Virus record (IMG/VR): IMGVR_UViG_3300017613_000582
Location: 1-33,755 of that record
Length of the DNA: 33,755 nt
Direction: 5' to 3' (one strand)
DNA from: a virus
Made by a program: the position numbers and the translations under genes. The first letter of the stretch is position 1, and every line of letters begins with the position of its first letter. Under the pieces are notes generated by a model, which was not told where the DNA came from, did not search any database, and worked only from the letters and a program-made list of their open reading frames with translations. Shown here in pieces: positions 1,514 to 31,281 of the stretch.

Positions 1514-2101
1514 ATGGGACTTTTAAAACGATCAGCCGATCTGATATATGCCTTTAGGTTTTTGAAGCTCCTTACAACTTCGTTTAAGGATACTGAAGCT
1601 TATAATCTTGGTATCATAGATGAGAAGGGGACACGGGATAAAAATGTTAAGTTGAATAACCCAGAATTGAGAGATGCCTATACTCCATTTCACAGGTTGG
1701 TCTATAACATAAAACGTCTTATGTCCAAAGTTCCGGGCGGGGGTGGTAAATTAGCATCCTATGCTGCTGCCATATATCTGATTAAAGAAAAATATAATCT
1801 GTCAGATAGCACCTTACAAAAAGCCCTTGATGAATCAGGCTACACCAAAGATGATTGTATCAACGAACAGAACCAATGGTTTTTGATTGAAGGTAATCAG
1901 TTAGCGCCGGGGGTGTACAGGATCAAAAATGAAAAAATTGTAAATTTCTCCTTCGAAGAATTGGTAAACCCCAAAGATAAAATTCGCATTAAGGAAAATG
2001 CAGTTCCTATAGGGGAAGTTTTTGGTATAGATATTTATGAAGCAACACATATAAACACCAACCAGAAAATATACGTTACGGTAGGAGAACTGCTAAAATG
2101 A
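1514..2101 (+). CDS. Conserved T4-like marine phage protein of unknown function
   Basis: The 195-residue protein begins MGLLKRSADLIYAFRFLKLL and contains AYTPFHRLVYNIKRLMSKVP with a glycine-rich turn (GGGGKLASYAAAIYLIKEKY). The C-terminal half looks like a small beta domain (PGVYRIKNEKIVNFSFEELV, then a short strand-rich tail). This organisation is familiar from cyanophage-type T4 relatives, where it follows the preceding conserved small gene. I cannot assign a biochemical role. It begins 1 nt after the preceding stop, and its stop overlaps the next ATG (ATGA), so the run from 849 to 2460 looks like one coupled operon. Confidence 0.7.
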   Translation: MGLLKRSADLIYAFRFLKLLTTSFKDTEAYNLGIIDEKGTRDKNVKLNNPELRDAYTPFHRLVYNIKRLMSKVPGGGGKLASYAAAIYLIKEKYNLSDSTLQKALDESGYTKDDCINEQNQWFLIEGNQLAPGVYRIKNEKIVNFSFEELVNPKDKIRIKENAVPIGEVFGIDIYEATHINTNQKIYVTVGELLK

Positions 2102-2460
2102 TAGAATTCAGACATTACATGATGGAAAAATCATCACGAGATAAAATGGCTACCAAGTATACTGGTAAGTCCATCGATCATTTGGAAAAGATGCTTAAAG
2201 CTCGTAACTATTCCCCTGCTGATAAGAAAGAAATTCAGAAAGAAATAGATAATAGAAATGCTCCTGAGAAGGCTAGAATACCTAAGTTTAGGGGTTGGGG
2301 TAAGAATGTTAATGAAGAAGCTCCTAGCGTGAACACAGGCTCTGCACCGGGCGCTGGATCAGATGCTTCCCTGCACACCAAGAAAGCCAGATTGTTTAAA
2401 CGCATTTACCGTAGACACCACACAACCAAAGAAGACGTAAAGCTGGCTTCAAAGAGATAA
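2098..2460 (+). CDS. Small protein with internal-protein-like N-terminus
   Basis: The 120-residue basic protein starts at an ATGA overlap with the previous gene. Its first ten residues, MIEFRHYMME, fit the spacing of the T4 internal protein III capsid-targeting peptide (MKTYQEFIAE): an aromatic residue at 4, an aromatic at 7, a hydrophobic at 8 and Glu at 10. This suggests gp21-dependent processing after residue 10. The rest is low in hydrophobic residues, with a helical K/E-rich part (residues 25-50), a G/S/A-rich linker (SVNTGSAPGAGSDASLHTKK) and a strongly basic C-terminus (RLFKRIYRRHH). A basic, linker-rich protein would suit a DNA-associated capsid interior protein, but this is inference. 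No enzyme motif is visible. Confidence 0.65.
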   Translation: MIEFRHYMMEKSSRDKMATKYTGKSIDHLEKMLKARNYSPADKKEIQKEIDNRNAPEKARIPKFRGWGKNVNEEAPSVNTGSAPGAGSDASLHTKKARLFKRIYRRHHTTKEDVKLASKR

Positions 2461-9197: not shown

Positions 9198-9362
9198 ATG
9201 GCTAAATTCAATCGTTTTGATGCCAACAACAAACGCAACAATCGTCACAAGCAAGTAAGTCGTGATGATGACAATCTCAGAAAAATCCGGCGTAAGAAAA
9301 ATGCCCATCCTAAATGGAAGATGCAGGACTCTGATCTGAGTGAATTTGAACTGGAGGGATAA
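9198..9362 (+). CDS. Very small basic protein
   Basis: The 54-residue ORF starts at ATG 9198, 6 nt after GGAG (9188-9191). It begins MAKFNRFDANNKRNNRHKQV and is rich in Arg, Lys and Asn in its first 40 residues, with an acidic tail (SDLSEFELEG). It lies between two genes on the same strand with 23 and 4 nt gaps. Basic, disordered composition suggests RNA, DNA or ribosome contact, but there is no recognisable family. Confidence 0.6.
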   Translation: MAKFNRFDANNKRNNRHKQVSRDDDNLRKIRRKKNAHPKWKMQDSDLSEFELEG

Positions 9363-9366
9363 ACTC

Positions 9367-9564
9367 ATGACCCATTTATTTGACGAAATCAGACCTGATA
9401 TCAAAGTTTACTACTTCATAGAAGATGGTAATTTGTGCTGGTCCTTGGATGAATACGAACTTACTCGTTCAAAAAGACGAGGATATCCATATAGAGTGGT
9501 TGACTATACCATAGATTCATACTATGGTGAAGATTATAACCAACCTAGTGGAGATGAAATTTGA
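9367..9564 (+). CDS. Small acidic protein of unknown function
   Basis: ATG 9367 (MTHLFDEIRPDIKVYYFIED) has GGAGGG 8 nt upstream, so the longer TTG start at 9340 is unlikely. The 65 residues are rich in Tyr and Asp (YYFIEDGNLCWSLDEYEL, then VVDYTIDSYYGEDYNQ). Its stop overlaps the TTG start of the HAD gene. The tight packing points to an operon. No known family. Confidence 0.6.
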   Translation: MTHLFDEIRPDIKVYYFIEDGNLCWSLDEYELTRSKRRGYPYRVVDYTIDSYYGEDYNQPSGDEI

Positions 9565-10175
9565 ATTACACAAACCATGATATTGATCGTGTTATCCTAA
9601 CTGACATTGATGGCGTAGTCCTAAACTGGGAATACGCCTTCATTACATGGATGAGCGCACGGGGGTTTAACTTACCTCAAAACCGTGAACAATCGTATTA
9701 CATGCACATCCTGTATAGAGATCAGCTATCAAAAGCTGAAGTTAAATCAATGATCCGCACCTTTAATGAATCTGCTGCAATTGGATTTTTACCCCCTCTT
9801 CGGGATGCAATGTATTATATGAAAAAATTACATGAAGAGCATGGGTTTATATTTCATGCAATCACGTCTTTATCTAATGATCAATCAGCCCAGAAATTAC
9901 GAATTCAAAACCTTGAGAAATTGTTTGGTACTACCTTGTTTGACACTCATGTCTTTTTGGACACTGGGGAAGATAAAGATGAAGTGTTGAAAAAATATGC
10001 TGATACGGGTCTTACTTGGATCGAAGATAAAGTTGAAAATGCCATTGTAGGTAAAGACCTTGGATTGAATGCTATGATTATGGAGCATGGGCACAATATG
10101 AACCATGATCTTCCAATACTCGAAGACATTCCATTGGTGAAAAACTGGAAAGAAATTTATGAGGTAATGACATGA
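9561..10175 (+). CDS. HAD-superfamily phosphatase
   Basis: The 204-residue protein uses TTG 9561 as start, 7 nt after GGAG and overlapping the preceding stop. HAD motif I is ILTDIDGVVLNW (nucleophile Asp15, acid/base Asp17). Motif II is the Thr/Ser in HAITSLS (near residue 100). Motif IV is in LTWIEDKVENA. The alpha-helical cap region between motifs I and II is short. The layout resembles phage deoxyribonucleotidase or haloacid dehalogenase-like phosphatases, so a nucleotide substrate is reasonable but unproven. It is followed by an ATGA-overlapping PTH2-like gene. Confidence 0.82.
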   Translation: MNYTNHDIDRVILTDIDGVVLNWEYAFITWMSARGFNLPQNREQSYYMHILYRDQLSKAEVKSMIRTFNESAAIGFLPPLRDAMYYMKKLHEEHGFIFHAITSLSNDQSAQKLRIQNLEKLFGTTLFDTHVFLDTGEDKDEVLKKYADTGLTWIEDKVENAIVGKDLGLNAMIMEHGHNMNHDLPILEDIPLVKNWKEIYEVMT

Positions 10176-10570
10176 CACCAGTACTATACATATTAATGCG
10201 AAACGACATGGACAGTTTGAATCCGGGCAAGGCTATTGCACAGGGCAGTCATGCTACCAATGATTTTGAATATAACATAACATCTGAAACTGATAACATA
10301 ACAGATGCAGTGAAGGCATGGAAAGACGAAGGCTTTGAATCCTTCGGTACATGCATTGTTCTTGGAGCAACTGAAAATCAAATCGGTATGATCGTAGATT
10401 CAGTTGAAACTATATATGGATTAGCGGCGAGCGATATAATTGATCCGACTTATCCGATTACAGACGGTGATACATTACATTTTTTGCCGGTTATGACTTG
10501 TGCTTGGTTATTTGCTGAAGATGCTAAATTAGCACAGCCATATTTATCTCATCTTGATCTATATAAATAG
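10172..10570 (+). CDS. PTH2-like peptidyl-tRNA hydrolase homologue
   Basis: The 132-residue protein begins with the PTH2 pattern LYILMRNDMDSLNPGKAIAQ followed by GSHATNDF. The Gly-Lys (Lys20) and AQ..HA elements match the conserved core of archaeal/eukaryotic peptidyl-tRNA hydrolase 2. The later part (GTCIVLGATENQIGMIVDSV, LHFLPVMTCAWLF) corresponds to the central and last beta strands. PTH2 recycles peptidyl-tRNA; T4-like marine phages often carry this small protein, and it may differ in activity. Its stop lies inside a TATAAATA box that may drive the next genes. Confidence 0.75.
   Translation: MTPVLYILMRNDMDSLNPGKAIAQGSHATNDFEYNITSETDNITDAVKAWKDEGFESFGTCIVLGATENQIGMIVDSVETIYGLAASDIIDPTYPITDGDTLHFLPVMTCAWLFAEDAKLAQPYLSHLDLYK
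10562..10569 (+). promoter_or_regulatory. Candidate T4-type late promoter box, plus strand
   Basis: TATAAATA matches the T4 late-promoter -10 consensus exactly. It overlaps the last codons of the PTH2-like gene and lies just upstream of the next small gene and the EF-hand membrane protein. Because the box also encodes Tyr-Lys, it could be coincidental; three identical boxes precede structural genes on the other strand. Confidence 0.4.
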
Positions 10571-11151: not shown

Positions 11152-11937
11152 ATGAATAAGAGCCAATTAATATATCAGGTGTATGTAGGCAAGAAATCAG
11201 CCCTGTACGATCACTGTACTGCCTCAGTACGAGCTTATGCAGAGGCCATGGGGGTAGACTACGTCTGTCAAACAGTACCCAAGCTATTCATCAAGCCAGA
11301 CCCATTCACAACTGGAAGAAGCTGGCAAGCTGTAGAGCGACTGGGATATTTACCTATATTTGAAAAAGAGAATGCATTTGATTACTTTGAAAAGGGTTAT
11401 GATCAAATAGCTATCATCGATTCTGATGTGTATGTAAGACCTGATAGCCCTAACATATTTGATGATCTACCCCCAGAATATGACTTTGGGGCAGTGGTAG
11501 AAAGAGATATGCCCATCACTGATGTGTATAAGAAAAAGATCATCAACTATTCTTACATGCAATATAAATCAATCACCAATGTAGACTTCAAACCAAATGA
11601 TCTCGGATATGAATTTATGAATATGGGTATTATGGTGATGAATAAATCCATTACAAAATATCTGAATGGTCAAACCGCCAAACAGTTTATACAACGCCCA
11701 GAGTTTAAGAACTTTGTGGATGGTGTTGGACCATGGAAATGGTCAACAGACCAGACATTACTAAACACATGGATACGTCATTCAGGAATGAAATATAAGG
11801 GTTTACATTGGAAGTGGAATGGTTTATATTCGGTTAACAAAAAAATCCACGTATGTCATTTCATACATTTCTTTTTGAAAGATAAGCTGCCCAACAGGGG
11901 CGAAAACGTAACACAATTGATGAAGGATATATTGTGA
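11152..11937 (+). CDS. Glycosyltransferase, GT-A/GT8-like
   Basis: The 261-residue protein has a GT-A pattern: an N-terminal beta strand (QLIYQVYVGKKSALYDHC), a helix, then the metal-binding DxD in IAIIDSDVYVRPD (Asp90, Asp92). Further on come FMNMGIMVMNKS and a substrate loop WSTDQTLLNTW. The C-terminal HVCHFIHF contains candidate metal-binding His residues. This fits GT8-type retaining transferases acting on nucleotide sugars. It opens a run of glycan-type genes to about 16.8 kb. Acceptor unknown: candidates are a virion glycan, host LPS or modified DNA. Confidence 0.8.
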   Translation: MNKSQLIYQVYVGKKSALYDHCTASVRAYAEAMGVDYVCQTVPKLFIKPDPFTTGRSWQAVERLGYLPIFEKENAFDYFEKGYDQIAIIDSDVYVRPDSPNIFDDLPPEYDFGAVVERDMPITDVYKKKIINYSYMQYKSITNVDFKPNDLGYEFMNMGIMVMNKSITKYLNGQTAKQFIQRPEFKNFVDGVGPWKWSTDQTLLNTWIRHSGMKYKGLHWKWNGLYSVNKKIHVCHFIHFFLKDKLPNRGENVTQLMKDIL

Positions 11938-11977
11938 TATACAATATTCTATTCAAAATAATGACAGGATAAAGCCA

Positions 11978-12142
11978 ATGAACAAAATTCAATGTAATTG
12001 GTGTGGTAGGTTTATTTCTTATAAGGATTTGGATGAGAATAAGGCTACTACAGAATTTACTCCAGACTCTCATTTTGGACCTGAAGTTATTGAACACACA
12101 TGCAAGAAGTGTAATGAAGAGGATGATAAATTAAATGGATAA
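11978..12142 (+). CDS. Small zinc-finger protein (two CxxC)
   Basis: The 54-residue ORF has MNKIQCNWCGRFISYKDLDE and, near its end, HTCKKCNEEDD. The four Cys (CNWC and CKKC) are separated by about 33 residues and suit a zinc ribbon. It lies in the 214-nt gap between the first glycosyltransferase and the next HAD gene. The ribosome binding site is weak (AGGATAAAG). It resembles the small zinc-knuckle proteins at 5412 and 6434 in size and charge but not in detailed sequence. Confidence 0.6.
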   Translation: MNKIQCNWCGRFISYKDLDENKATTEFTPDSHFGPEVIEHTCKKCNEEDDKLNG

Positions 12143-12151
12143 GGAACTAAC

Positions 12152-12550
12152 ATGAGTGGTTGGATAGGAGTGGACCTTGATGGGACTCTAGCTCATTATG
12201 ATACTTGGAATGGTATTGACGATATTGGAGAACCAATTAAACCTATGTGTGATAGAGTTAGAAAATGGCTGGCACAGGGGAAGACCGTTAAAATTTTTAC
12301 AGCCCGTGTACATGGTATTGGAATGAAATTTTTTGATGAAAGTGAAAAGGTAAGTAATAAGGCAGATGTTCGAAGATACTCTTATAGTGAACAAACCGAA
12401 GAAATGATTAAAGGCCCTATTGAAGAATTTTGTCTAAAAGAATTTGGAATGGTTTTAGAAATCACCAACACCAAAGATTTTGGAATGATTGAACTTTGGG
12501 ATGATAGATGTGTTCAAGTTGTTCCCAATACAGGAGAAAGAATAAGATGA
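12152..12550 (+). CDS. HAD-type phosphatase (PNK-phosphatase-like)
   Basis: The 132-residue protein has motif I GVDLDGTLAHYD (Asp8, Asp10), motif II in KIFTARVHG (Thr near residue 51) and a terminal acidic motif in IELWDDRCVQV. The short form and the sequence around DLDGTLA resemble phosphatase domains related to polynucleotide kinase 3'-phosphatases and small nucleotidases. There is no kinase P-loop, so it would be a phosphatase only. AAGGAACTA precedes the ATG. Its stop overlaps the next start (ATGA). Confidence 0.8.
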   Translation: MSGWIGVDLDGTLAHYDTWNGIDDIGEPIKPMCDRVRKWLAQGKTVKIFTARVHGIGMKFFDESEKVSNKADVRRYSYSEQTEEMIKGPIEEFCLKEFGMVLEITNTKDFGMIELWDDRCVQVVPNTGERIR

Positions 12551-12822
12551 TAAAAGAACAAAAAATGATTGACTGGGCTATAGAACAGTTTCATAAAGCA
12601 AAGCTATGTCATAGAAACGATTTCATTAATTGTGAATTTAGAGATTTGGCTCAATATCATTCTACCCTTGGAAGATCAATTCGAAACGAATTTAAACTTT
12701 GGAAAGGCTCGTGGGAACCAGAACTTGAAGGTAATGTAGATTATTCTACTAACCATCCAGATCAGGTTTCTCAAAGAGTAATTGAGAAGGTCTGGAAGGA
12801 ACTACAAAAGAATGACGGGTAA
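12547..12822 (+). CDS. Conserved small protein, DUF6794-like
   Basis: I choose ATG 12547 (MIKEQKMIDWAIEQFHKAKL) over an upstream start because it overlaps the preceding stop and has AGGAG upstream. The 91-residue helical protein contains LAQYHSTLGRSIRNEFKLWK and HPDQVSQRVIEKVWKEL. This pattern (H..LGR.IRN.F.LW, then HPD.VS) recalls a small family I know as DUF6794, found in bacteria and phages with no known function. The sulfotransferase gene overlaps its 3' end. Confidence 0.65.
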   Translation: MIKEQKMIDWAIEQFHKAKLCHRNDFINCEFRDLAQYHSTLGRSIRNEFKLWKGSWEPELEGNVDYSTNHPDQVSQRVIEKVWKELQKNDG

Positions 12823-13507
12823 AATATTCATTCACATCCCTAAGAATGGGGGGATGACAATACGAAGAAGTCCTGATCTTAGGGATAGGATTGTACCCGC
12901 TGGACCTTTAGTTCATAGAGCTGTTGCATATACCAATAATGTTAAAGCCAAGATGAAAGAGACTAAAGATCATCCGGGCCTAGAGCATGCCAGATGGAAA
13001 GACTTAAAAAGAAACATTGTTCTTGAAGCTGGGTCATTTGCTATTGTTCGTAATCCGTGGGATCGTGTAGTATCACGATATTTCTTTGCAAAGAAGGTTA
13101 TTGAAGTAGAAAAAAAAGTACCAGTATCTTATGCTGACACATCAAGTTTCGAAGCATTTCTTGAAGAGCGTTATAAGTGGGGAAGTGAACCATACATGTG
13201 GCATAGGGCTGTTAGAGGATGGTACCCTGCCTTCGATCACGTCTCTGATGATGAAACAGGTAAGATTGCTAGAAACCTTGATATTCTCAGATTTGAAAGC
13301 TATGATGAAGACTTCAAGGCATATTTCAGACTTCTGACAAATCCAAAACCCCGTAATGTGACTGCCATGAATAAGAAACATTATACCGACATATATACAC
13401 CAGAAACAATCCAGATAGTTGCTGATTGGTATGAGAAAGACATTGAAACTTGGGGATATGATTTTGACACGGGACCTACTAAAAATTGCTTCTTTAAGAA
13501 AGCTTAA
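12812..13507 (+). CDS. Sulfotransferase (Sulfotransfer_2-like)
   Basis: ATG 12812 gives a 231-residue protein beginning MTGKIFIHIPKNGGMTIRRS. The IHIPKNGGMT loop is the 5'-phosphosulfate-binding (PSB) motif, with Lys11. FAIVRNPWDRVVSRYFF (about 76-92) is the 3'-phosphate-binding motif, with Arg80 and Ser88. These define PAPS-dependent sulfotransferases that sulfate carbohydrates, with His/Glu elsewhere likely catalytic. It sits inside the glycosyltransferase cassette, so a sugar substrate is likely. It overlaps the previous gene by 11 nt. Phage-encoded sulfotransferases are uncommon. Confidence 0.85.
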   Translation: MTGKIFIHIPKNGGMTIRRSPDLRDRIVPAGPLVHRAVAYTNNVKAKMKETKDHPGLEHARWKDLKRNIVLEAGSFAIVRNPWDRVVSRYFFAKKVIEVEKKVPVSYADTSSFEAFLEERYKWGSEPYMWHRAVRGWYPAFDHVSDDETGKIARNLDILRFESYDEDFKAYFRLLTNPKPRNVTAMNKKHYTDIYTPETIQIVADWYEKDIETWGYDFDTGPTKNCFFKKA

Positions 13508-13531
13508 TCGCACAATAGAGAGAAAAAAATA

Positions 13532-14158
13532 ATGGACAGTTTAAAAGTATTGTTTGACAAATATGAATGTGATAAGGCGAAGAAACATCGATACCATGAG
13601 GTATATGAACCTCTGTTTATTCCTGATAGGGATCAAGAAATAAACTTCCTTGAGGTTGGGGTATGGAAAGCTGCCAGCACTAAGGCGTTTCATGACTTCT
13701 TTTTCAATGGTAACATTTATGGGGTGGATATATTTACCCGTATAAAAATAAATGATATTGATCTATCCAAACATCCCAGAATCAAATTGATGCAAGGGGA
13801 TAGTATGGATTTTTCTGTTACAGGTAAGGTCAAGAAAGAATTTCCAGTTGAGTTTGATTACATTCTAGATGATGGTGCCCATTGGCCCAAAGCCAACATG
13901 TTAACGTTTCGTCACTTTCACCCCCTGTTAAAATCTGGGGGATTGTATATCATTGAAGATGTATGGCCAATGGAATTGATGACCGGAAAAGAACTTAAAC
14001 ATCCATGGTTGACAAAGCATCCAAATAGGTATAATCCTATTGATAATCATTCGTTCCTTAATGAACTGTTTAAGTCTGATATGACCATAGAACGGTTTGA
14101 TTTAAGGTCTAAGAGTGGAAAACCTGATTCATATATCATTACTTTGAGGAAACCATGA
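13532..14158 (+). CDS. SAM-dependent class I methyltransferase
   Basis: The 208-residue protein has the Rossmann motif I INFLEVGVWKAAST (about 37-50) and an acidic motif II strand (GNIYGVDIFTR). Next come a motif III-like IKLMQGDSMDF, EFDYILDDGAHWP and a motif with GGLYIIEDVW. This is the pattern of O-methyltransferases that modify sugars or antibiotics (TylF/MycE-like, Methyltransf_24). Within the glycan cassette it may methylate a sugar hydroxyl; methylation of another small molecule is also possible. It ends overlapping the first GT25-type gene (ATGA). Confidence 0.82.
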   Translation: MDSLKVLFDKYECDKAKKHRYHEVYEPLFIPDRDQEINFLEVGVWKAASTKAFHDFFFNGNIYGVDIFTRIKINDIDLSKHPRIKLMQGDSMDFSVTGKVKKEFPVEFDYILDDGAHWPKANMLTFRHFHPLLKSGGLYIIEDVWPMELMTGKELKHPWLTKHPNRYNPIDNHSFLNELFKSDMTIERFDLRSKSGKPDSYIITLRKP

Positions 14159-14868
14159 AAGCATATGCAATAGTTGTTAAGGGAAATCCCATCTCGGAAT
14201 GTGGGTTTAAGTTTCTGGTAGCATCTTCAGAAGATGTAGGAAACGATTTTGAAGTTGAACGTTTTGATGCTACTACCCCGGATACAGCACCAGACAAATT
14301 AAAGCACCACCAAATATGGTGGAACTATCCATGGGAAGGTGAGCAAATGGACCTTTCTCTTCTTCTTCTGAAACGTGCTTATCAAACCAAAAATCCTCTT
14401 GCTAGAATTGGATGCTTTATATCTCATTACGAATTGTGGCATAAAGCAGTAGAATTGGATGAACCAATTTTAATCCTTGAACATGATGCCCAGTTCATCA
14501 AACGATTTGATTTGAGTAAATATGAAAATGGAGAATATGCTAACCTAAGAAGTTTCATCATAGGCATTAATAGTCCATTTAGTGCTACTCGAAAATCTAA
14601 CGTCTTCCACGAAAAAATTCAACATAGTAATAAAGAGCTTCAACCCTGTCCCCATGTTGATGATGATATAACAATTCCTCAAGGCCTTGCAGGAAATTCT
14701 GCTTATGTTATAGGACCTGTTGCGGCCAAAGAAATGATTAGAATAACCAAAGATGTTGGGGCTTGGCCTAATGATGCTCTTATGTGTGGGCAGTTGTTCC
14801 CCTACTTGTTTGTCACCAAAGAATACTATACAAGAGTACAGGGATTAAGGAGTACTACTACATCATGA
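14155..14868 (+). CDS. Glycosyltransferase family 25-like
   Basis: The 237-residue protein carries the GT25 block ARIGCFISHYELWHKAVELD followed by EPILILEHDA (about 83-112). The EHDA acid cluster takes the place of a DxD for metal and sugar-nucleotide binding. Further motifs are NSAYVIGPVAAKEMI and PNDALMCGQ. GT25 enzymes include LPS galactosyltransferases and collagen-type transferases. The next gene is a divergent paralogue with the same signature, so a tandem duplication followed by divergence is likely. Overlaps on both sides (ATGA) show tight coupling. Confidence 0.85.
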   Translation: MKAYAIVVKGNPISECGFKFLVASSEDVGNDFEVERFDATTPDTAPDKLKHHQIWWNYPWEGEQMDLSLLLLKRAYQTKNPLARIGCFISHYELWHKAVELDEPILILEHDAQFIKRFDLSKYENGEYANLRSFIIGINSPFSATRKSNVFHEKIQHSNKELQPCPHVDDDITIPQGLAGNSAYVIGPVAAKEMIRITKDVGAWPNDALMCGQLFPYLFVTKEYYTRVQGLRSTTTS

Positions 14869-15512
14869 AAGCCTTTGTTATTACCATAGTAGATAATGAG
14901 AGGTCTGTAGAGGCCGCTAGACGCTGTATAATCTCTGCTGAGAAGCATGGCACCAAGGTCACGACCTACCCTGCCATAACGCCTAAAAACACCGATTTAA
15001 AGGCATATACGAACAAACACAACATTAGTACTCGATTTTTCAACGAGACTTATTCACGTACCGACAATTGTATTGCTGCATTTTGTTCTCACCATTCTCT
15101 ATGGCAGAAGGCTGTTGAGTTGAATGAAGATGTGTTAATCCTTGAACATGATGCAAAGTTTATTCAGCCTCTTCCAGAATTACGATATTATGAAGGTTGT
15201 ATATCTTTTGGTAGACCTTCTTATGGTAAATACTTTTTCCCAAGTTTCATGGGCACAACCAAATTGATTTCAAAACAATACTTCCCCGGTGCCCATGCTT
15301 ACATGGTATCACCAAAAGCTGCTCCGATTTTACTTAACGCTGCTCATTCTCAGGCTTGTCCTACTGATCTATTTTTCCACAATGATAGGTTTAACTTCCT
15401 TCAGGAATACTACCCATGGCCTATCTGGGCAGATGACTCGTTCACCACTATTCAAAACGTTAAGGGATGTGTGGCCAAGCATAACTTTGGTAAAGGATAT
15501 GATATAATATGA
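14865..15512 (+). CDS. Glycosyltransferase family 25-like (second copy)
   Basis: ATG 14865 overlaps the preceding stop and gives a 215-residue protein starting MKAFVITIVDNERSVEAARR. It repeats the GT25 core: CIAAFCSHHSLWQKAVELNE and DVLILEHDAKFI (about 69-100). After it come AHAYMVSPKAAPILL and a TDLFFHNDR loop. Comparison with the upstream gene shows the same order of motifs (SH..LW.KAVEL.E..LILEHDA.FI) but otherwise low identity. The two may add different sugars to one glycan. Confidence 0.85.
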   Translation: MKAFVITIVDNERSVEAARRCIISAEKHGTKVTTYPAITPKNTDLKAYTNKHNISTRFFNETYSRTDNCIAAFCSHHSLWQKAVELNEDVLILEHDAKFIQPLPELRYYEGCISFGRPSYGKYFFPSFMGTTKLISKQYFPGAHAYMVSPKAAPILLNAAHSQACPTDLFFHNDRFNFLQEYYPWPIWADDSFTTIQNVKGCVAKHNFGKGYDII

Positions 15513-16174
15513 TTCCTAATGCCTTTGTCACTGGATGTGACCATAAAACAGAATGGATGTTACCTTGGTTTCTCAGGAATTTTCGTAAATACAACAACTA
15601 TCCTATCTATTTTGCAGATTTTGGGGTTTCAAAATCTATGAGAAAATGGGTTGAAGAGAGCGAAGAGTTTGAAGATATTATAGAATTTGAGGACACATCT
15701 CATAAAAAATGGTATCTGAAACCAGCCGCTCTTATGAAGACCCCTGCCAAGAATAAGGTATGGCTTGATACTGATTGTGAAGTTCGGGCTGGCTTAAACT
15801 CTATTTTCAATTACATTGAAGTTGGAAAACTTGCTGTTGTAGAAGACACCCCATGGTCTAGGCGTAGGGGAGAAACGTGGCACAATTCTGGAGTAGTAGG
15901 AGTTCACAATTCCCCCAAGGTGTTAGACGAATGGCAGTTTAGATGTAAGAATAATGCCGTTGACGGTAACCCTCTTTATGGGGATCAGGATATTCTTCAT
16001 GAAATGTTGAGTGATCCTTTGACCAGATGTATACATATTAACGATCTGCCCAACAAATTCAATTTTTTAAGGCTACAAATACTTGATGGAGAAGACCCCA
16101 AGTTTGCCTATATTATACATTGGACAGGGCAAAAAGGTAAAGATGAAATAAGAAGACAAATGAATGATAATTAA
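15509..16174 (+). CDS. Glycosyltransferase-like protein (GT-A fold)
   Basis: The 221-residue protein contains KKWYLKPAALMKTP, then VWLDTDCEV (Asp87, Asp89), a DxD-type metal site. WHNSGVVGVHNS and YGDQDILHEML follow, and IHWTGQKG lies near the end. These are signature positions of GT8-type and related GT-A transferases, in order. It shares the DQ(D/T)xL segment with the transferase at 11152 but not overall identity. It starts in an ATGA overlap with the second GT25 gene and ends inside the start of the next gene. Confidence 0.78.
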   Translation: MIPNAFVTGCDHKTEWMLPWFLRNFRKYNNYPIYFADFGVSKSMRKWVEESEEFEDIIEFEDTSHKKWYLKPAALMKTPAKNKVWLDTDCEVRAGLNSIFNYIEVGKLAVVEDTPWSRRRGETWHNSGVVGVHNSPKVLDEWQFRCKNNAVDGNPLYGDQDILHEMLSDPLTRCIHINDLPNKFNFLRLQILDGEDPKFAYIIHWTGQKGKDEIRRQMNDN

Positions 16175-16763
16175 AGAAGCTCATGTGATTGGTAATGGTA
16201 GAAGCGCCTATAATTATCAACCTAGCCCCGGCCTAAAAATAACTTGTAATCTACCACCAATGGCAGTGGAAGATGTGTTTGCCACATGTATTGTGGATTT
16301 TAAAATGATGCAGTCCATGACCAAAGGAGAAATTACTGTACCCGGTTCATGGATTTTAGGTATGAGACCTAAACTTTGGATGGAGAAAAATCCGTCTTAC
16401 TATATGAAAGTTGCTTCTCAGATTAAGGAATTTTATCAGGTTCTTCCTTCATATATTCCAGACTATACCAAGTTTTCGTGTGGTCACTTTGCAGTGCATT
16501 ATACCGCCAGCAAACACAGACCCGACATTTTACACATGTATGGATTCGATTCCATATTTGATTTTGACTTAACCTCTTGTTCTGATTATTATCTACACTC
16601 AAATAGAGACAATCAAAACACTACCAGATTAACAAACGATTGGCGTTCGGGTTGGCCGGGTATCTTTAATGAATTTCAAAACACACAATTTGTCTTGCAT
16701 TACAAGCACGATCATGTTAAGTTTCCTATACCAGATAATGTAAAGGTACACATTACAAAATGA
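16164..16763 (+). CDS. Conserved marine phage protein linked to glycan genes
   Basis: The 199-residue protein has a Rossmann-like N-terminus (EAHVIGNGRSAYNYQ), then LKITCNLPPMAVEDVFATCI and VDFKMMQSM. KFSCGHFAVHYTASKHRPDI, LHMYGFDSIFDF and SDYYLHSNRDNQN come later, followed by a WRSGWPGIFNEF block. I recognise the pattern from cyanophage-type genomes, where it has no experimental function. It may be related to DUF115-like Rossmann proteins near glycosyltransferases. Position at the end of the cassette and overlaps with both neighbours suggest a glycan role. No DxD is visible. Confidence 0.65.
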   Translation: MIIKEAHVIGNGRSAYNYQPSPGLKITCNLPPMAVEDVFATCIVDFKMMQSMTKGEITVPGSWILGMRPKLWMEKNPSYYMKVASQIKEFYQVLPSYIPDYTKFSCGHFAVHYTASKHRPDILHMYGFDSIFDFDLTSCSDYYLHSNRDNQNTTRLTNDWRSGWPGIFNEFQNTQFVLHYKHDHVKFPIPDNVKVHITK

Positions 16764-17477: not shown

Positions 17478-18830
17478 TTACGCTAGGATATTATCCACAC
17501 GGAAGATACGGTAGTACTGGTTAGACTTAGCAGTAGCTAGACCATTGGCTGGTGTAGAACCAACGAATGGGTTAGACACCATACCATAACGGGTTTTGAA
17601 ACCAATTTTTGGTTGGAAGGTGTTTTCGCCAATTGCTTTCATCATTGTAAGCGGTACGTATGGGCAGTAGAACACACCAGCGTCATAAGGATTAGTACCT
17701 TTGTATCCGACTGTTACGTAGTCTACAACCGCATAAGGATCGATATACACTTTGGTACGACCATTAAGCACACCGGCGAAGGTATTGCCTGTGTCATCAA
17801 CTTGTAGGTTAGCAGAGATAGCTGGAGCGTAATCCAACATTCCACCAGCAGCTAGGGCTGTTGCAACATCAGAAGAACAAACTACTACGTTACCTTTACC
17901 TCTACGAGTTTCTTTAGCGATTACGTTTGCTTCACGTTCAAGCTGAACCATAAGGCCCTTGAACTTTTCAACAGACCAGCGACCATCAGCATCAGTACTA
18001 AGATTGAAGATACCGTTGATTGCAGTGTTGCCTTGGAGACAACCAGTCTTAGCTTGGCTGTTGATTGTACGAACAACTTCACGGTTGATTTCAGCAAGAA
18101 GCTCAGTTGACAAGATGTTTGCCAATTCAGTTTCTGCATCAAGTCCGTGGATAGCACGTAGGTCTTGAGCCAATTCGATTGAGTATTCAGCCTTCAGCGC
18201 ACGAGACTCCGCAGTCACAGTGCTTTTTTCGATGGTGAAACCCATTTCTTTGAAAGCATCAGTTGTACCAAGAGCTTCGGCAGAGTCGGTAGTCATACCT
18301 GTACCAAAGATATCAGTGTAACGAGCATCTTCGATGCTTGAGTCAGTAGTACGTACTGGAGGACCAGCAGCAGAGTCATCAGAGATACCTGATAGACCAG
18401 AAGGACCAGCAGAAGCAGAGTCAGCACCAGTACCGTCTTGAGTACCAGACCAGCCTGTACGGGGTTCGTTAAATTGCGCTTCAGTTGAAGACGTTGCACC
18501 AGAGCCATAACGTGCTTTCATTGCAAAGATTAGTCCTGTTGGACCAGTCATAGGCTGAACGCCTGCAATGTCATACGCCATAAGATTAGGCGCAGAACGT
18601 CTAACCAAGCTAATTAGGACAGGGTCCCAGTTAGCAGCCGAGTTGGTGCTGTTTGATGGCGCAGCTTCCGCTAGAAAGTTCATCTGTTCACGCTCTTGAC
18701 CAAGAGCCTTTTCAGTGTTTTCGAGAAGAACAGCAGTTACTGAACGGCGGTGCAGATCAGTAATTTTCCCAGATGTTTCTTCATTAAGAACTGGCGACCA
18801 TTTTTCGATTAGTTTATCATAAGATTCCAT
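17478..18830 (-). CDS. 23: Major capsid protein gp23
   Basis: The 450-residue protein is the T4-type major capsid protein precursor, which forms the hexamers of the head. MESYDKLIEKWSPVLNEETS starts a helical pro-region. A gp21-type cleavage site, LAE before Ala (residues 53-55), lies in QMNFLAEAAP. The mature part begins AAPSNST and continues with NWDPVLISLVRRSAPNLMAY, DIAGVQPMTGPTGLIFAMKA and a long G/S/T-rich insertion region (about 110-170). Later motifs are LKAEYSIELAQDLRAIHGLD, GKGNVVVCSSDVATAL and the C-terminal GFKTRYGMVSNPF. It is the last gene of the late block and precedes the terminator. Confidence 0.97.
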   Translation of the reverse strand: MESYDKLIEKWSPVLNEETSGKITDLHRRSVTAVLLENTEKALGQEREQMNFLAEAAPSNSTNSAANWDPVLISLVRRSAPNLMAYDIAGVQPMTGPTGLIFAMKARYGSGATSSTEAQFNEPRTGWSGTQDGTGADSASAGPSGLSGISDDSAAGPPVRTTDSSIEDARYTDIFGTGMTTDSAEALGTTDAFKEMGFTIEKSTVTAESRALKAEYSIELAQDLRAIHGLDAETELANILSTELLAEINREVVRTINSQAKTGCLQGNTAINGIFNLSTDADGRWSVEKFKGLMVQLEREANVIAKETRRGKGNVVVCSSDVATALAAGGMLDYAPAISANLQVDDTGNTFAGVLNGRTKVYIDPYAVVDYVTVGYKGTNPYDAGVFYCPYVPLTMMKAIGENTFQPKIGFKTRYGMVSNPFVGSTPANGLATAKSNQYYRIFRVDNILA

Positions 18831-18861: not shown

Positions 18862-19923
18862 TTATTGATTGTTTGTTTTCTTTAGGGCTTCAACATAACG
18901 TGACATTGATTCGGTTACTTCAACAGCATCCTCTTCTTCTTCTTCGTCTACGTCATCTAGAATGGATGATTGTGGCTTGCCCTTGGTGAAATAAGATTCT
19001 TTAACGGTTTCCACTTTCATTTTGAAAGATTCTTCGTCATCGAAATCTAGGCTTTCAACAAGATCACGCAATTTATCTACTTGTGTATCAGCAAGACCAT
19101 TTGAAGCTTCAAGCACGATTGATTCACGCTTGTACCCTTCTAGTTCTTCTGTCATACTAATGATCTTACCAGTTTTGCTGTTAAGTTCAGTTTCAAGAGA
19201 TTCGACTTGTACAGAAAGATCGTCTACAAGATCAACCTTTTCTTCAGGAACAGTGATGTAGGATTCAGTAAAGATGCCTTTTAATTTGGTCATGAAATCT
19301 TCACTAATCTCAGTTCTGAGACCAGTTTGAACCGCAACCTTATTGGCGTCCATCCATTCTTCTACAACGAAGTTCAAGTAACTATCGACATTTTCCACGA
19401 GTTCAGACCTCTGTTCTTCAATAGAAACTTCGAAACGATCCTGATAGTCGAGTTCCAATCTGGAAATCTCTTCTTTCAATTTCGATTTGATAGCAGCTTC
19501 AAAAATTACAGTAGACTTTTCTTTAAATTCATCTGACAATGTAGCTTCTGATTCTTGCAATGCTTTCATATCATCGCTGAAATCATAAGAAACATCTTCA
19601 AGTTGATCTTCAACATCATCATTCTCTTCTTCTAGCTCTTCACCAGAAAGAACAGAATGAAGTTTGTCGAGGTCTTCCATTGTCATTTCTGACATTAGAT
19701 CATAAAGTTCTCGTACAATACCAGACTTAGATTTTGGTGCTTTTTTGTCACCACCATCCTTGTCACCTTTACGCTTTTTAGCCTTTGGGCCAGTATCGCC
19801 AGCTTTTTCTACCGATTTGATAGAAGCCGTTTCATCTGGACCCGGATCAGTTTCTTTGCCTTCATCGATTTCATTCTCGTTATCGTGAAGTTCAACATCA
19901 TCCTTGAGTTTGTTTTTAGGCAT
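18862..19923 (-). CDS. 22: Prohead scaffold/core protein gp22
   Basis: The 353-residue protein is extremely acidic and helical. It has a polar, K/D-rich N-terminus (to about residue 70), a long coiled coil (about 100-300) and a terminal segment (VDEEEEEDAVEVTESMSRYV, then EALKKTN). That composition and the place between gp21 and gp23 define the T4 gp22 scaffold, which fills the prohead and is degraded by gp21. Several I/L-x-E sites suit that protease. Sequence conservation in this family is low, so synteny carries much of the call. Confidence 0.9.
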   Translation of the reverse strand: MPKNKLKDDVELHDNENEIDEGKETDPGPDETASIKSVEKAGDTGPKAKKRKGDKDGGDKKAPKSKSGIVRELYDLMSEMTMEDLDKLHSVLSGEELEEENDDVEDQLEDVSYDFSDDMKALQESEATLSDEFKEKSTVIFEAAIKSKLKEEISRLELDYQDRFEVSIEEQRSELVENVDSYLNFVVEEWMDANKVAVQTGLRTEISEDFMTKLKGIFTESYITVPEEKVDLVDDLSVQVESLETELNSKTGKIISMTEELEGYKRESIVLEASNGLADTQVDKLRDLVESLDFDDEESFKMKVETVKESYFTKGKPQSSILDDVDEEEEEDAVEVTESMSRYVEALKKTNNQ

Positions 19924-19933
19924 GTTATACTCC

Positions 19934-20599
19934 TTACATGTTTTTTTTAATTAACGAGAGGAAATTTTTGAATTCTCGGATTTGCACTTCTGGTGCATAT
20001 GTCCGACCAACATTCTTAATTTCAGTCTCCATTTGTTCAATCTCTTGTGCCTCAATGATGCCATTGTTCCACACCCATTCTACTCCTTCCATAATGCCAT
20101 TAACAAAAGCGTTTGGAGCAGAGGGGTCTTGGACAATATCAATGGTATTGAGCATGAAATCTTCACGCACAACCATAGCATCTCCAGACTTAGCAAGAGT
20201 TCCCATTCCACGAGTTGAAACACCTAGTTTAACACCACCATCAAGAAGACCTTTTACAATCTCCCCATTAGGAGTATCTAAAATAGATGCTTTACCCACC
20301 ACTTGTTTATTACCTTCAATTCTTAGATCGGTAATGAGGTGGGATACTTTGTCGAGATTCACGGTAGGACCTTCGGGGTGGTTTAGTTCACCAACAGCCC
20401 GTCCTGTTTTTACCTGATTCTCGTAATATTTGTTTACCGCTTGTTCCATAACAGATTTGGGATATACTCGACCATTTCTGTTTTTCTCATCATATGCAGC
20501 AAAAGAACCTTCGATATAATACTTCTTAGGCACATCTTTAGTGGCCGCTTCAGTAACGAATTCAATATCTTGTTCTGTGTATTCGGTAATTAGTTTCAT
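19934..20599 (-). CDS. 21: Prohead core protease gp21
   Basis: The 221-residue length matches T4 gp21, the serine protease that matures the prohead. The assemblin-like fold signatures are KYYIEGSFAAYDEKNRNGRV, the catalytic His in VGELNHPEGP (His74) and the catalytic Ser in LGVSTRGMGT (Ser128), followed by VREDFMLNTIDIVQDPSAP. N-terminal FVTE before AATKD is a possible self-cleavage point. The start overlaps the end of the upstream small gene (ATGA). It cleaves gp23, gp22 and possibly the internal-protein-like products noted here. Confidence 0.95.
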   Translation of the reverse strand: MKLITEYTEQDIEFVTEAATKDVPKKYYIEGSFAAYDEKNRNGRVYPKSVMEQAVNKYYENQVKTGRAVGELNHPEGPTVNLDKVSHLITDLRIEGNKQVVGKASILDTPNGEIVKGLLDGGVKLGVSTRGMGTLAKSGDAMVVREDFMLNTIDIVQDPSAPNAFVNGIMEGVEWVWNNGIIEAQEIEQMETEIKNVGRTYAPEVQIREFKNFLSLIKKNM

Positions 20600-20847
20600 T
20601 TTTTAATTTTTCCAAACTTGGCTCTAAGTTCGTCGCCCATCATTCGACTAACAGGCTTTTCCTTTTTCGTAGGAAGTTTTTTACCAGTTTTTGCTGATCT
20701 GCCCATTGCTTTTGCATGTGCAGCATCTACTTTACGGGTAGTCTTTAATGGGTCTTCTTTGTGTTTGATTTTAGGAGCCTTATTACGCTCACTAATTTCC
20801 TTTCCAGCCTCTGAAAACCCTTTTCTTATTTCTTTAAACGTTTTCAT
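20596..20847 (-). CDS. Small basic prohead-region protein with internal-protein-like N-terminus
   Basis: The 83-residue protein is very basic (about one third Lys/Arg). It starts MKTFKEIRKGFSEAGKEISE, close to the T4 internal-protein targeting peptide MKTYQEFIAE. FSE before Ala and ISE before Arg are possible gp21 cleavage sites. The remainder (KHKEDPLKTTRKVDAAHAKA, then TGKKLPTKKEK) looks disordered and suits DNA binding in a packed head. It overlaps both neighbours by 4 nt. Equivalent basic proteins occur near gp21 in related phages. Confidence 0.75.
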   Translation of the reverse strand: MKTFKEIRKGFSEAGKEISERNKAPKIKHKEDPLKTTRKVDAAHAKAMGRSAKTGKKLPTKKEKPVSRMMGDELRAKFGKIKK

Positions 20848-21035
20848 TTGCTTAGATCAATATACTCTTTGGCTGATGCAACTGCTTCTTTTTCACTTTT
20901 GTAAGTGTCAATCTTATCCCCATCAACAAATAGAGTATGAGATGATCCAGTTTTCGTCAGCTTCCAAGAAACCCCCTTATATTTACCAGAGTTTGATTCA
21001 ATCAACTCTTGGCGTATTTCCTTAAACGTCTTCAT
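20844..21035 (-). CDS. Small prohead-region protein with internal-protein-like N-terminus
   Basis: The likely start is the ATG at 21035 (MKTFKEIRQELIESNSGKYK), 3 nt after an equally possible ATG and within the end of the core-protein gene. The 63 residues have a short N-terminal helix identical over MKTFKEIR to the next gene. Then comes a small beta/alpha domain (YKGVSWKLTKTGSSHTLFVD, DKIDTYKSEKEAVASAKEYI). LIE before Ser (residue 13) is a candidate gp21 site. After processing a compact 50-residue domain would remain in the head. Function unknown. Confidence 0.72.
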   Translation of the reverse strand: MKTFKEIRQELIESNSGKYKGVSWKLTKTGSSHTLFVDGDKIDTYKSEKEAVASAKEYIDLSK

Positions 21036-21198
21036 CATCAGCAACATCTGGATTGAAGATAGTGTCAGCAACTGCTATCTTTTCTTGATCCATGGCAGCA
21101 GTCAATTTCTCTCCAAGAATACTCTCAAAGGTAGCACCAGCATTTGTAAAGTCTTTATTAGCGACTTGTTGGATCATTGTTTCAATTTCTTCAGACAT
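21022..21198 (-). CDS. Small prohead core protein (gp67/gp68-like)
   Basis: The 58-residue ORF reads MSEEIETMIQQVANKDFTNA, then ATFESILGEKLTAAMDQEKI and ends with an acidic tail (DVADDEDV). This matches the short helical core proteins found between gp20 and gp21 in marine T4-like phages, the position of T4 67/68. Its start lies 27 nt after an exact TATAAATA late box. Core proteins help shape the prohead and are digested by gp21; IFN and ILGE elements could be cleavage points. Its 3' end contains the start of the next gene. Confidence 0.8.
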   Translation of the reverse strand: MSEEIETMIQQVANKDFTNAGATFESILGEKLTAAMDQEKIAVADTIFNPDVADDEDV

Positions 21199-21225: not shown

Positions 21226-21233
21226 TATTTATA
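21226..21233 (-). promoter_or_regulatory. T4-type late promoter box for the gp67/68-gp23 block
   Basis: TATAAATA on the minus strand lies between the gp20 stop and the small core-protein start, 27 nt upstream of that start. It is an exact match to the T4 late consensus and should drive the core, protease, scaffold and capsid genes. Confidence 0.8.
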
Positions 21234-27704: not shown

Positions 27705-29864
27705 TTAATAATCGCCCCAAGTACCAGACCCCGGCCCATCAAATTCTACCAAAGACCATTGTGGGCTGGGTAACATATCTTCTTCGTCGTGTATGTCTTC
27801 AAACCCATCATTGATGATACCAAACGGTAGAACATCAGCTTCAATCTCTTTCATTCTTTGATCGTATAGCATTTCTCTCATGTTAATGTTAGTCATGTCA
27901 GAGAAGAATCTGGTACCCGTAAAGTAGCCAAACAATACTAGGTTCATTACTAGATCGTCGTGATTACCAGAAGAAGCTTCAAATGAAACACCCTTGGATT
28001 CGAATGTTGAAATTTCTTTGATTGTTAGTTCGTCTACAATTTCTAATTTGCCAGATTCCAGAATATCCTTAAAGCCCGTACATCCAATACGTTTGGATTT
28101 GCGGGTTATTTCCATTCCCAGTTTGTTCTTTACCGCAGATTCAACGTGCATATTTTCATATTCAAGATCATGATACAAACCATTACACACAACAGTACCC
28201 TGATCATTTGATTCAACAATGACATAAGCCTCATTATAAGCCTTGGCATATTTTTCTATAATGTCAGGAAATAAGAGAGGGGATATTTTATTGTTTCGAT
28301 ATACCGCAACCTGTTTAAAAGGAGATGAGGTGATATCAATCACATTGAAGGTTGAGAAGTCCTGAGAGCGTCCCTTAGACACATCTACGGTCATTACGTA
28401 CTCATGTCCCGGAATAGCCTCTTCATACACTGTAGCGTCTCCCTGTACGTACAGAGGGACCTTTGCCCTAAGAGCCATTAGGGTTTCAGCGTCAATCAAA
28501 GTATCCCCAGTACCAAAGAAGGTATTAGAAGATAAAATTTTATCGTCGTGATAAAAAACTGATCCATCATCCACATTTATAGGATCATAGAACCAATCTG
28601 ATTCTTCAATTGTTTCTATTGATGAGACTATCTTTCCAACATTATCATTGACTTGAATATCTTTGGCATATACTTTATCTCCATTTATAATAAATCTATG
28701 GTTCTTAGCAACATCAATATAAGAATCATCAAACCAAATTCTTAGAAAATGATCGTGATAATATCTAGCAATGCCGTCAAATTTCTGAAATCCCGATGGA
28801 GTTAAAATTTGTAAATCATCAATATGCATTAGGTAATTTTTCTGTTCTAGATACGTCTTTCTATCGTGATACCAATGTATTGCTTTGAGTCTGATTTCCT
28901 CGTCAATAGGTAAACCAGATGTTGATCCTCTACTAATACATTCATATAAATCTCCTATTGCTATTTCGGCTACCATTTCGGCTACATGATTATTCATACA
29001 TATAGTGATTCGAGAACTATTTCTCAAGCAATTCCCAAATTCTTGGTCGAATTGAAGTTGTGATGTATTGTTGACAGTAGTTTCTTTCCATTTTTTATCT
29101 CTACCCGGCACGTCCCACCAATCTACTCGAAAGTGTTTAAAGTCGTTTGTGCCCTGCATAGCTCCTTCCCAGATTTTGTGATATTGATTACCAATACCAT
29201 TAGCAGTGGAAGTAATAATAACCTGAGTAGTTTCCCCAGATGTAATAACAGGATAGGTAGAGGTATAGAAAGTAGCAGCATCATTAACAAATGCAAATTC
29301 GTCAAGGTATAGAAGGTTCATGGAGAACCCACGAATGGAGTTGGATGATGTGGATTCTGCTCTAATTTCAGAATTATTTGAAAATAGAACATTACCCTTA
29401 TTAAGAATTTTACAACCCGGTTGCAGAAAGAATGGCAGGTTTTCCAACATCAATGTAATACGAGCCAACATTTCACGGGCAGTACCCCCTTTGTTTGCCA
29501 GAATACCAACCTTCTTATCTGGTTTGAATATGGCATACCAAAGGATATAAGCAACAGACGAAACTGATTTACCAGATTGTCTACAAGCCAAAACAATACT
29601 AAATCGATTGTCAATAAAGTGTTTGAACATATCTTCTTGATATGGATACAGTTCAAAATCAACTAATCCTCTATCAAGGTGAATAACTTTTAGATATTTC
29701 TTACAGAAGTAGACCGGATCGGCAGAACACTTTGCATATTCTGCTATTTCGTAATTAGTATAGGCCTGTATTACCCCATCTCGTTTGACCGCTGGGTTGC
29801 CAAGATAACAATCAAATTTAGTAAATCCCTTTTCATTAAACATTGTACCACTCCCATTTATCAC
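27705..29864 (-). CDS. 17: Terminase large subunit gp17 with intein
   Basis: The 719-residue product is the packaging motor carrying an in-frame intein (residues 279-447), leaving a 550-residue mature protein. The ATPase has Walker A CRQSGKS (94-100), Walker B LLYLDEFAF (184-192) and coupling motif STANG (219-223). The nuclease part has VDVSKGRSQDFS (Asp494), VESNDQG (551-557) and GNHDDLVMN (near 636). It docks gp20 and pumps DNA. The insert splits EFGN from TFFGTGDTLI, joining which restores a normal gp17 path. The C-terminus is acidic. It follows gp16 with a 3-nt gap. Confidence 0.96.
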   Translation of the reverse strand: MINGSGTMFNEKGFTKFDCYLGNPAVKRDGVIQAYTNYEIAEYAKCSADPVYFCKKYLKVIHLDRGLVDFELYPYQEDMFKHFIDNRFSIVLACRQSGKSVSSVAYILWYAIFKPDKKVGILANKGGTAREMLARITLMLENLPFFLQPGCKILNKGNVLFSNNSEIRAESTSSNSIRGFSMNLLYLDEFAFVNDAATFYTSTYPVITSGETTQVIITSTANGIGNQYHKIWEGAMQGTNDFKHFRVDWWDVPGRDKKWKETTVNNTSQLQFDQEFGNCLRNSSRITICMNNHVAEMVAEIAIGDLYECISRGSTSGLPIDEEIRLKAIHWYHDRKTYLEQKNYLMHIDDLQILTPSGFQKFDGIARYYHDHFLRIWFDDSYIDVAKNHRFIINGDKVYAKDIQVNDNVGKIVSSIETIEESDWFYDPINVDDGSVFYHDDKILSSNTFFGTGDTLIDAETLMALRAKVPLYVQGDATVYEEAIPGHEYVMTVDVSKGRSQDFSTFNVIDITSSPFKQVAVYRNNKISPLLFPDIIEKYAKAYNEAYVIVESNDQGTVVCNGLYHDLEYENMHVESAVKNKLGMEITRKSKRIGCTGFKDILESGKLEIVDELTIKEISTFESKGVSFEASSGNHDDLVMNLVLFGYFTGTRFFSDMTNINMREMLYDQRMKEIEADVLPFGIINDGFEDIHDEEDMLPSPQWSLVEFDGPGSGTWGDY
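28524..29030 (-). other. Mini-intein (169 residues) in gp17
   Basis: The insert starts with Cys (CLRNSSRITI) and ends ILSSN before Thr. Its block B-like region is DVAKNHRFIINGDKVYAKDI followed by QVNDNVG, a Hint-fold signature; the usual Thr of TxxH is Ala here. The C-terminal block is WFYDPINVDDGSVFYHDDKI. The penultimate residue is Ser, not His, a tolerated variant. At 169 residues it has no room for a homing endonuclease. Confidence 0.85.
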
Positions 29865-30257: not shown

Positions 30258-31030
30258 GCGCTATCCACCACTCTGGTTAGGGTTTCTACGAATGTATAAT
30301 CTGAATCTACTGATACTGGGCTTGGGTCAGTTGTTACCACGAGTTGTGAATACTGAATATCAGAATCATCGGTAAAGAAATCGACATAAGCAGTTTCGAT
30401 AATTTTACCTTCAGAAGTTGGTCCATAGAAATCTATTTTCATTTCAAAATCCAAGGTGTATATGATAGTACGTCTGGATTCTACTGCTCCTTCAAAATCA
30501 TCAGAAAAGTTAACTGCTTGAAGGGTTATTGGAACGTCATCCTTGATTAGAGGATAATCATCCAATGGTTTTATTGTTAAGGAATATTGTGGTTTGAAAT
30601 ATGGAACAATTTGTTCCACTAATTGTAGAGCATCATCATGATTTTTTGCATAGATGTTTAGCTGGAAGCCAATGTTATATGGGGTCTTGGCATAAATTCT
30701 GGTTCGGCTTGAAGTATCCCCAGTCACTCCCCCAACAATACAATTATTCATCTTATTGATTTGACGGGTAGGATCATATGTTAATGAAGTTATTTCAAAT
30801 GACATTCTGGGCAGCTTGATAGCCACCACATTCAATTCGTTTAGATCATTCTTATTGTCTTCTTCAAGACGTTCAATAAACTTACGCTTTGGAGCATAAG
30901 ACAACGGTACTTTAATTTGAGAAGTAGAAGCCCCGCCTTTATTCTTACGAATAACATACATGTTGTTGAACAGGGCACCAAAGGAACCAACTGATCTACG
31001 GATACGCTCATGATAGAAATAGCTAAACAT
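30254..31030 (-). CDS. 15: Tail completion and sheath stabiliser gp15
   Basis: The 258-residue protein begins MFSYFYHERIRRSVGSFGAL and has IKVPLSYAPKRKFIERLEED, KLPRMSFEITSLTYDPTRQI and a later YNIGFQLNIYAKNHDDALQL with VEQIVPYFKPQYSLTIKPL. This is the T4 gp15 pattern; gp15 hexamers cap the tail and join it to the neck. Length is close to T4's 272 residues. A small gene sits immediately before it. Confidence 0.94.
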   Translation of the reverse strand: MFSYFYHERIRRSVGSFGALFNNMYVIRKNKGGASTSQIKVPLSYAPKRKFIERLEEDNKNDLNELNVVAIKLPRMSFEITSLTYDPTRQINKMNNCIVGGVTGDTSSRTRIYAKTPYNIGFQLNIYAKNHDDALQLVEQIVPYFKPQYSLTIKPLDDYPLIKDDVPITLQAVNFSDDFEGAVESRRTIIYTLDFEMKIDFYGPTSEGKIIETAYVDFFTDDSDIQYSQLVVTTDPSPVSVDSDYTFVETLTRVVDSA

Positions 31031-31281
31031 TATTCGTACCCATTATCCCCAAGATTAATTGTTTTCAAAATAAAGTATTCTGGCCCAGCAGTGGACTTAA
31101 TCCAATAACCTGTACCTTCTTTTCGTGGTCTACGGTCAGTTCCTATTTCCATTTGAACCCAATTTAAAGCATCTCGTTTAGTATTATAATAACCTTCAAT
31201 ATTCCAACTACCATATGGAGATGAAACCACCGCCCAAGGTTTTCTCTTAGCCTCACTTATATATGTTTTAAACGTAATCAT
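31030..31281 (-). CDS. Small protein with internal-protein-like N-terminus
   Basis: The 83-residue protein starts MITFKTYISEAKRKPWAVVS. Its first ten residues closely follow the T4 internal-protein peptide (MKTYQEFIAE): an aromatic at 4, a Tyr/Phe at 7, Ile at 8 and Glu at 10, followed by Ala. ISE is a good gp21 site. The remainder is a compact beta/alpha domain (YGSWNIEGYYNTKRDALNWV, GTGYWIKSTAGPEYFILKTI). It overlaps gp14 by 4 nt and gp15 by 1 nt, so it is made with late structural genes. Function unknown. Confidence 0.75.
   Translation of the reverse strand: MITFKTYISEAKRKPWAVVSSPYGSWNIEGYYNTKRDALNWVQMEIGTDRRPRKEGTGYWIKSTAGPEYFILKTINLGDNGYE

Follow-up and report, generated by a model that had tools for sequence, protein, structure and literature searches.

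Two adjacent small genes in the head operon of a T4-like marine myovirus encode proteins that open with the same eight residues, MKTFKEIR, and show no similarity beyond them. We propose that this start acts as a capsid-targeting peptide like those of T4, which would make the first protein (ORF1) a core-associated head protein and the second (ORF2) packaged cargo; as a whole, this is the best explanation we have, with a probability of roughly 0.68. The sequences argue strongly for capsid targeting and with moderate force for cleavage of the two peptides, and injection is suggested only by analogy with T4. The phage is the source of the 33.7-kb viral record analyzed here, all 33,755 nucleotides of which are referred to as the window.

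Organization of the head operon

On the minus strand of the window, the head genes are arranged in the order gp20 (portal), gp67-like, ORF1, ORF2, gp21, gp22, gp23. The gp67-like prohead core protein (21022..21198, 58 aa) was recognized by PHROG 1064 'prohead' (E 5e-5) and showed a weak match to T4 gp67 (25% over 40 aa, E 8e-4). It is followed by ORF1 (20844..21035, 63 aa, pI 8.9), the head-operon protein in the position of gene 68, which starts with MKTFKEIRQELIESNSGK... / MKTFKEIRQELIE..., and by the very basic ORF2 (20596..20847, 83 aa, pI 10.5), which starts with MKTFKEIRKGFSEAGKEISERNKAPK.... The prohead protease gp21 (Peptidase_S77; 19934..20599) was identified by Pfam PF03420 (E 8e-35) and PHROG 207, and the head scaffolding core protein gp22 (18862..19923) by PHROG 237 and Pfam PF25623. 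The names gp20 and gp23 (major capsid protein, 17478..18830) rest on resemblance and gene order, gp23 having been named without a family search. These matches, together with the gene order, confirmed the original prediction that the pair lies beside gp21 and a core protein.

An exact match to the T4 late-promoter core, TATAAATA (21226..21233, minus strand), lies upstream of the gp67-like–ORF1–ORF2–gp21 genes. The ORF1–ORF2 and ORF2–gp21 junctions are ATGA-type overlaps, so the genes are probably co-translated. Elsewhere in the window, a run of sugar- or nucleotide-related and glycosyltransferase-like ORFs (11152-16763, plus strand) adjoins the head genes, and the large terminase ORF (27705-29864, minus strand; 719 aa) seems to contain an intein-like insert extending approximately from CLRNSSRITICMNNHVAEM to KILSSNT.

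ORF1 and ORF2 share an N-terminus and then diverge

ORF calls, translations and a comparison of the DNA agreed that ORF1 and ORF2 are real and diverge after their common start. Within the 24 nt encoding it, the two genes differ at four positions, all synonymous; only 9 of the following 24 nt and 6 of the 30 nt preceding the start are the same in both genes. Because the DNA similarity does not extend past the eighth codon and the codons up to there show synonymous differences, recent copying of the tag is unlikely.

When the N-termini in each of 12 phage genomes or contigs were compared with one another, residues 2-8 were fully identical in 10 of about 1.4 million pairs, a rarity that places the identity between ORF1 and ORF2 far beyond chance. 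The remaining pairs with full identity were mostly overlapping or duplicated ORFs or ORFs derived from repeats in contig G001; in T4, they were IPII/IPIII and Alt/alt.-1. The repeat-rich stretches of G001 (L112:138-1303; L116 near 9300-10400) yield ORFs such as MKSVRNQVEDQV and MHLTPDLIPDLTPDL. A chance match or an annotation artefact could be argued from the frequency of short K- and E-rich peptides at the N-termini of phage proteins; against this stand the 7/7 identity between neighbouring unrelated ORFs and the homologues that each of the two bodies has in other phages. The family evidence described below already refutes this explanation, and we give it practically no weight.

The ORF1 family is widespread and keeps the N-terminal motif

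The original prediction had called the genes an undescribed pair and recommended a search of related phages for small ORFs with this N-terminus. A family of ORF1-like proteins of about 62-75 aa emerged: 57 of the 75 related contigs with sufficient upstream sequence to be informative encode a member in the interval that precedes gp21. The family is indeed unnamed, but ORF1 itself is no orphan. Its conserved N-terminus reads M-K-x-F-x-x-[IL]-R-E: among distinct sequences, F is present at residue 4 in 42/44 and I/L-R-E at residues 7-9 in 41/44, and R8 is invariant. Window ORF1 departs from the family in having IRQ (Q at 9), with LIE at 11-13 instead. In C48C1 (OQ984149, 14434-14628, plus strand), the homologue is annotated as a 46-aa fragment, and a likely GTG start 57 nt upstream would give MRTFKELREA. 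This was the only match to ORF1 in a tblastn search of phage records, which returned none for ORF2; neither ORF had a significant match in Pfam or PHROG. The gp67–gp21 interval is variable, and in L012 it carries MKFKQFMAEVLGEGVEQIDEL....

The predicted fold of ORF1 consists of a helix, four strands and a second helix, with a mean pLDDT of 77. Its first helix spans residues 4-11 with a pLDDT in the 60s, compared to 82-85 in the core. Foldseek returned no significant match for this fold (the highest structural Z, 6.5, falls in a range common for small folds), and a profile search of PDB sequences gave only hits with E > 0.2. Most likely, ORF1 is a minor core protein of this lineage that occupies the T4 gene 68 slot.

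In two contigs (L033 and L036), the ORF1 domain (KSFQDIREAKSVVFSKK...), including F-x-x-I-R-E, lies inside a longer protein about 1 kb upstream of gp21; a region of more than 200 aa precedes it in the same reading frame and itself starts with MKIFDEMRHHLKES. Since the motif is here internal, it may be a structural part of ORF1. The F-x-x-I-R-E helix would then be a fixed, never-removed element of a scaffold or core protein, and ORF2 would have obtained a copy by short recombination and would bind the same partner. The invariance of R8, the retention of the motif behind another protein and the adjacency of ORF1 and ORF2 all fit this explanation, whereas the linker behind the motif varies in length or is missing altogether, the DNA similarity breaks off as described above, and the same kind of start occurs on many unrelated proteins far from the head operon. 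On balance, we consider a permanent structural helix unlikely, although it is the most serious competitor of a targeting peptide.

Putative cleavage sites

The prohead protease gp21 cuts according to the rule L/I-x-E (PMC9026906), and the I/L-R-E of the ORF1 family fits this rule. Window ORF1 contains a single L/I-x-E, LIE-13, which would delimit a targeting peptide of residues 1-13 (20997..21035, minus strand). The only L/I-x-E of ORF2 is ISE at 18-20, two residues before the sequence KAPKI. As ISE-20 fits the rule close to the KAPKI module and FSE-13 is off the rule, ORF2 would be cut after residue 20 and not 13, giving a proposed targeting peptide of residues 1-20 (20788..20847, minus strand). 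The original prediction of processing at residue 13 in both proteins may thus stand for ORF1 and has to be revised for ORF2. Cleavage at LIE-13 and ISE-20 is plausible, but a lone L/I-x-E close to the start of a charged protein carries little weight by itself. Two observations count against targeting and cleavage: the L/I-x-E rule does not explain the invariant R8 of the ORF1 family, and E at 9 is missing from ORF1 and ORF2 of the window, with no L/I-x-E in ORF2 before residue 20. The N-terminus of gp23, MESYDKLIEKW, also matches the tag motif used below, and its L-x-E site is NFLAE/AAPS.

ORF2 carries a basic module found in large phage proteins

Residues 6-70 of ORF2 match large cytidylyltransferase/DUF5824 phage proteins with 51-64% identity. 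From about residue 23 onwards, the match is to a module, KAPKI...DAAHAKAMGRSxxTGRKLPKK, within proteins of 913-996 aa; in ORF2 this basic module covers residues 23-61 (20665..20781, minus strand) and reads KAPKI...DAAHAKAMGRSxxTGKKLPxK. In L004-L009 it is preceded by QIDE/KAPKI wherever the upstream part is present, and in G007/L156 by QLDE/KAPKM. Motifs of the type [QKET]-[ILV]-D-E occur four to five times per large protein, compared to 0.2 in shuffled sequences. Two such proteins of 913-978 aa (L006:2697-5438 and L010:3213-6149, both plus strand) have repeated EEVEQ[IV]DE-like linkers, and judging from their sequences they are possibly polyproteins cut by the prohead protease. ORF2 is more likely to be cargo, and may be ejected along with the DNA.

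Similar tags are enriched in related phages

Tags resembling the common start, of the form M-x-x-F-K-x-[FY]-[IL]-x-E, are enriched on many unrelated proteins of related phages. The frequency of a fixed tag motif was compared between N-termini and their own shuffles. Tagged N-termini exceeded the shuffles in T4 (6 v 1.0), C48C1 (8 v 0.6), G002 (8 v 0.3), G004 (4 v 0.3), G007 (5 v 0.1), the Methylophilales phage Melnitz (6 v 0.6) and DLP6 (3 v 0.4). HTVC008M, S-PM2 and Syn1 showed no significant excess. In a pool of 2396 distinct ORFs, the motif was found at the start codon of 318, compared to 35-69 for permuted or shifted motifs, and seven protein families were at least 60% tagged, compared to 0-2; the pooled counts are biased upward because tagged queries (HD, DUF6267) had served to collect part of the contigs. 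The whole-genome tests are less biased, though some genomes were reached via the same families. An early scan with a loose motif gave many chance matches, and our claims rest on the comparisons with shuffled sequences and shifted motifs only.

Of 243 strict cases, 193 have Y/F at position 7, 155 have I/L at position 8 and 184 have E at position 10. Codon use inside the tags is near the gene average, indicating selection on the peptide. This bears on the idea that the common start is a signal at the nucleotide level, for instance an element for translation initiation or coupling in late genes, with the peptide as a by-product. A late-promoter motif within 120 nt is indeed commoner for tagged ORFs (59/239) than for others (222/1974); however, synonymous variation in the tag is ordinary, the four differences between ORF1 and ORF2 are silent, and the conserved positions track residue chemistry (Y/F at 7, I/L at 8). 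We therefore regard such a signal as very improbable.

Within the window, the motif scan revealed two further tag-bearing ORFs. One of 83 aa (31030..31281, minus strand; start MITFKTYISEAKRK) begins MITFKTYISE/AKRKPW and has F4, Y7, I8 and E10, which makes its start the window's closest match to a T4-type targeting peptide, closer than that of the ORF1/ORF2 pair. The other, of 120 aa (2098..2460, plus strand; start MIEFRHYMMEKSS), begins MIEFRHYMME/KSSR.

The tag is modular and occurs on enzymes

In related phages, T4-type targeting N-termini were found on DUF6267 proteins (tag MMLDFKNFITEQ, L107:1824-3047, plus strand), HD_4 hydrolases (MKTFKKFISED, L131:1223-1783, minus strand), Zeta-toxin-like kinases (MIKFKRFFEEG, L280:1952-3004, plus strand), a SAM-lyase-like protein (MQSFKSFLGEH, L226:167-754, plus strand), DUF6321 and a cytidylyltransferase of C48C1, which starts with MIKNFSQYLLEEE. 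The DUF6267 proteins of C48C1, DLP6 and Melnitz bear the tag, whereas their cyanophage orthologues lack it and start at MAKNTHLEHLED. The domain border is identical in tagged and untagged orthologues, indicating that the tag is modular.

These sequences suggest that related marine phages pack and inject tagged unrelated proteins, enzymes included. A broader proposal is that T4-like phages of marine bacteria load varied enzymes with their DNA through a general, exchangeable head-targeting peptide, and that these act on the host upon infection, ORF1 and ORF2 being the prohead-operon end of this system; we judge the odds of this to be about even. Candidate enzymes are the HD-type (p)ppGpp-hydrolase-like, SAM-lyase-like and Zeta-kinase-like proteins, DUF6267, and the cytidylyltransferase/DUF5824 polyproteins, in which I/V-D-E cut sites recur. 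T-even phages are known to package CTS-tagged cargo, and such tagging has already been suggested in a review as a general packaging route for T4-like phages (PMC9026906). The occurrence of the tags on unrelated families of marine T4-like phages, enzymes among them, appears to be new: searches of a literature collection with few subscription papers turned up no previous account of such tags on enzymes of marine phages. Should enzymes of abundant marine phages indeed be addressed by the same peptide, packaged cargo could be predicted from the sequences of uncultured viruses, and many phage enzymes now called 'hypothetical' would be injected and act early.

Model for ORF1 and ORF2

We envisage that ORF1 and ORF2 are synthesized late, from an operon that also encodes core proteins and gp21. 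Their N-terminal peptides would dock them on the prohead core ahead of shell closure, with F4 and I7 forming the contact side. gp21 would then probably cleave at the L/I-x-E sites, LIE-13 in ORF1 and ISE-20 in ORF2, so that a small alpha-beta protein (ORF1) and a strongly basic one (ORF2) stay behind in the head with the DNA. We infer docking, cleavage and packaging from the evidence above; ejection and a function in the host are speculative.

Comparison with known systems

The head proteins of the giant phages SPN3US and 201phi2-1 resemble the proposed sites in that their prohead protease cuts after glutamate, and SPN3US gp53 and gp54 have identical N-termini (PMC5694885). Many of the propeptides there are longer than 100 residues, however, and the lineage differs from that of the window phage.

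The gene order of T4 is 20-67-68-21, then 22 and 23, and ORF1 occupies the gp68 slot between gp67 and gp21. ORF1 family members are shorter (about 62-75 aa) than T4 gp68 (141 aa). Homology to gp68 was sought and not found: hhalign gave a probability of 0.1% for the ORF1 profile and no alignment for ORF2.

A few proteins enter the host together with the DNA of T4 and protect it from restriction or modify the host RNA polymerase. The T4 ORF pairs with at least six of residues 2-8 alike were IPII/IPIII, IPI/gp61.1 and Alt/alt.-1, of which the last carries the annotation of a duplication. Every such pair contains a known packaged protein; only gp61.1 and alt.-1 are not known to be packaged. The hypothetical protein gp61.1 (NC_000866, 18966-19130, minus strand; 54 aa) starts MKTFKEFIKED, which makes it a candidate for an unrecognized internal protein.

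In the T4 peptide, targeting depends on residues 4 and 7, and processing on 8 and 10 (PMC9026906). ORF1 and ORF2 differ from the T4 internal proteins in having R instead of I at residue 8 and in lying inside the head operon, whereas the T4 ip genes lie outside it; no homology between their bodies and those of the T4 internal proteins was found. At the targeting positions they have the aromatic F4 and the large hydrophobic I7 expected of a T4-type capsid-targeting sequence, alike in kind to the residues of IPII and IPIII, which start MKTYQEFIAE, and of IPI, which begins MKTFKEFTSTTTPVSTITE (MKTFKEF) and has six of the same seven leading residues as MKTFKEIR. Together with the location in a prohead operon and the excess of tags in related phages, this upholds the likeness to the T4 sequence on which the original prediction was built. 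ORF1 and ORF2 have a common start of the expected kind (10-19 residues on unrelated proteins), the identical stretch being 8 residues; like IPI, IPII and IPIII of T4, they combine a short common N-terminal peptide with unrelated bodies.
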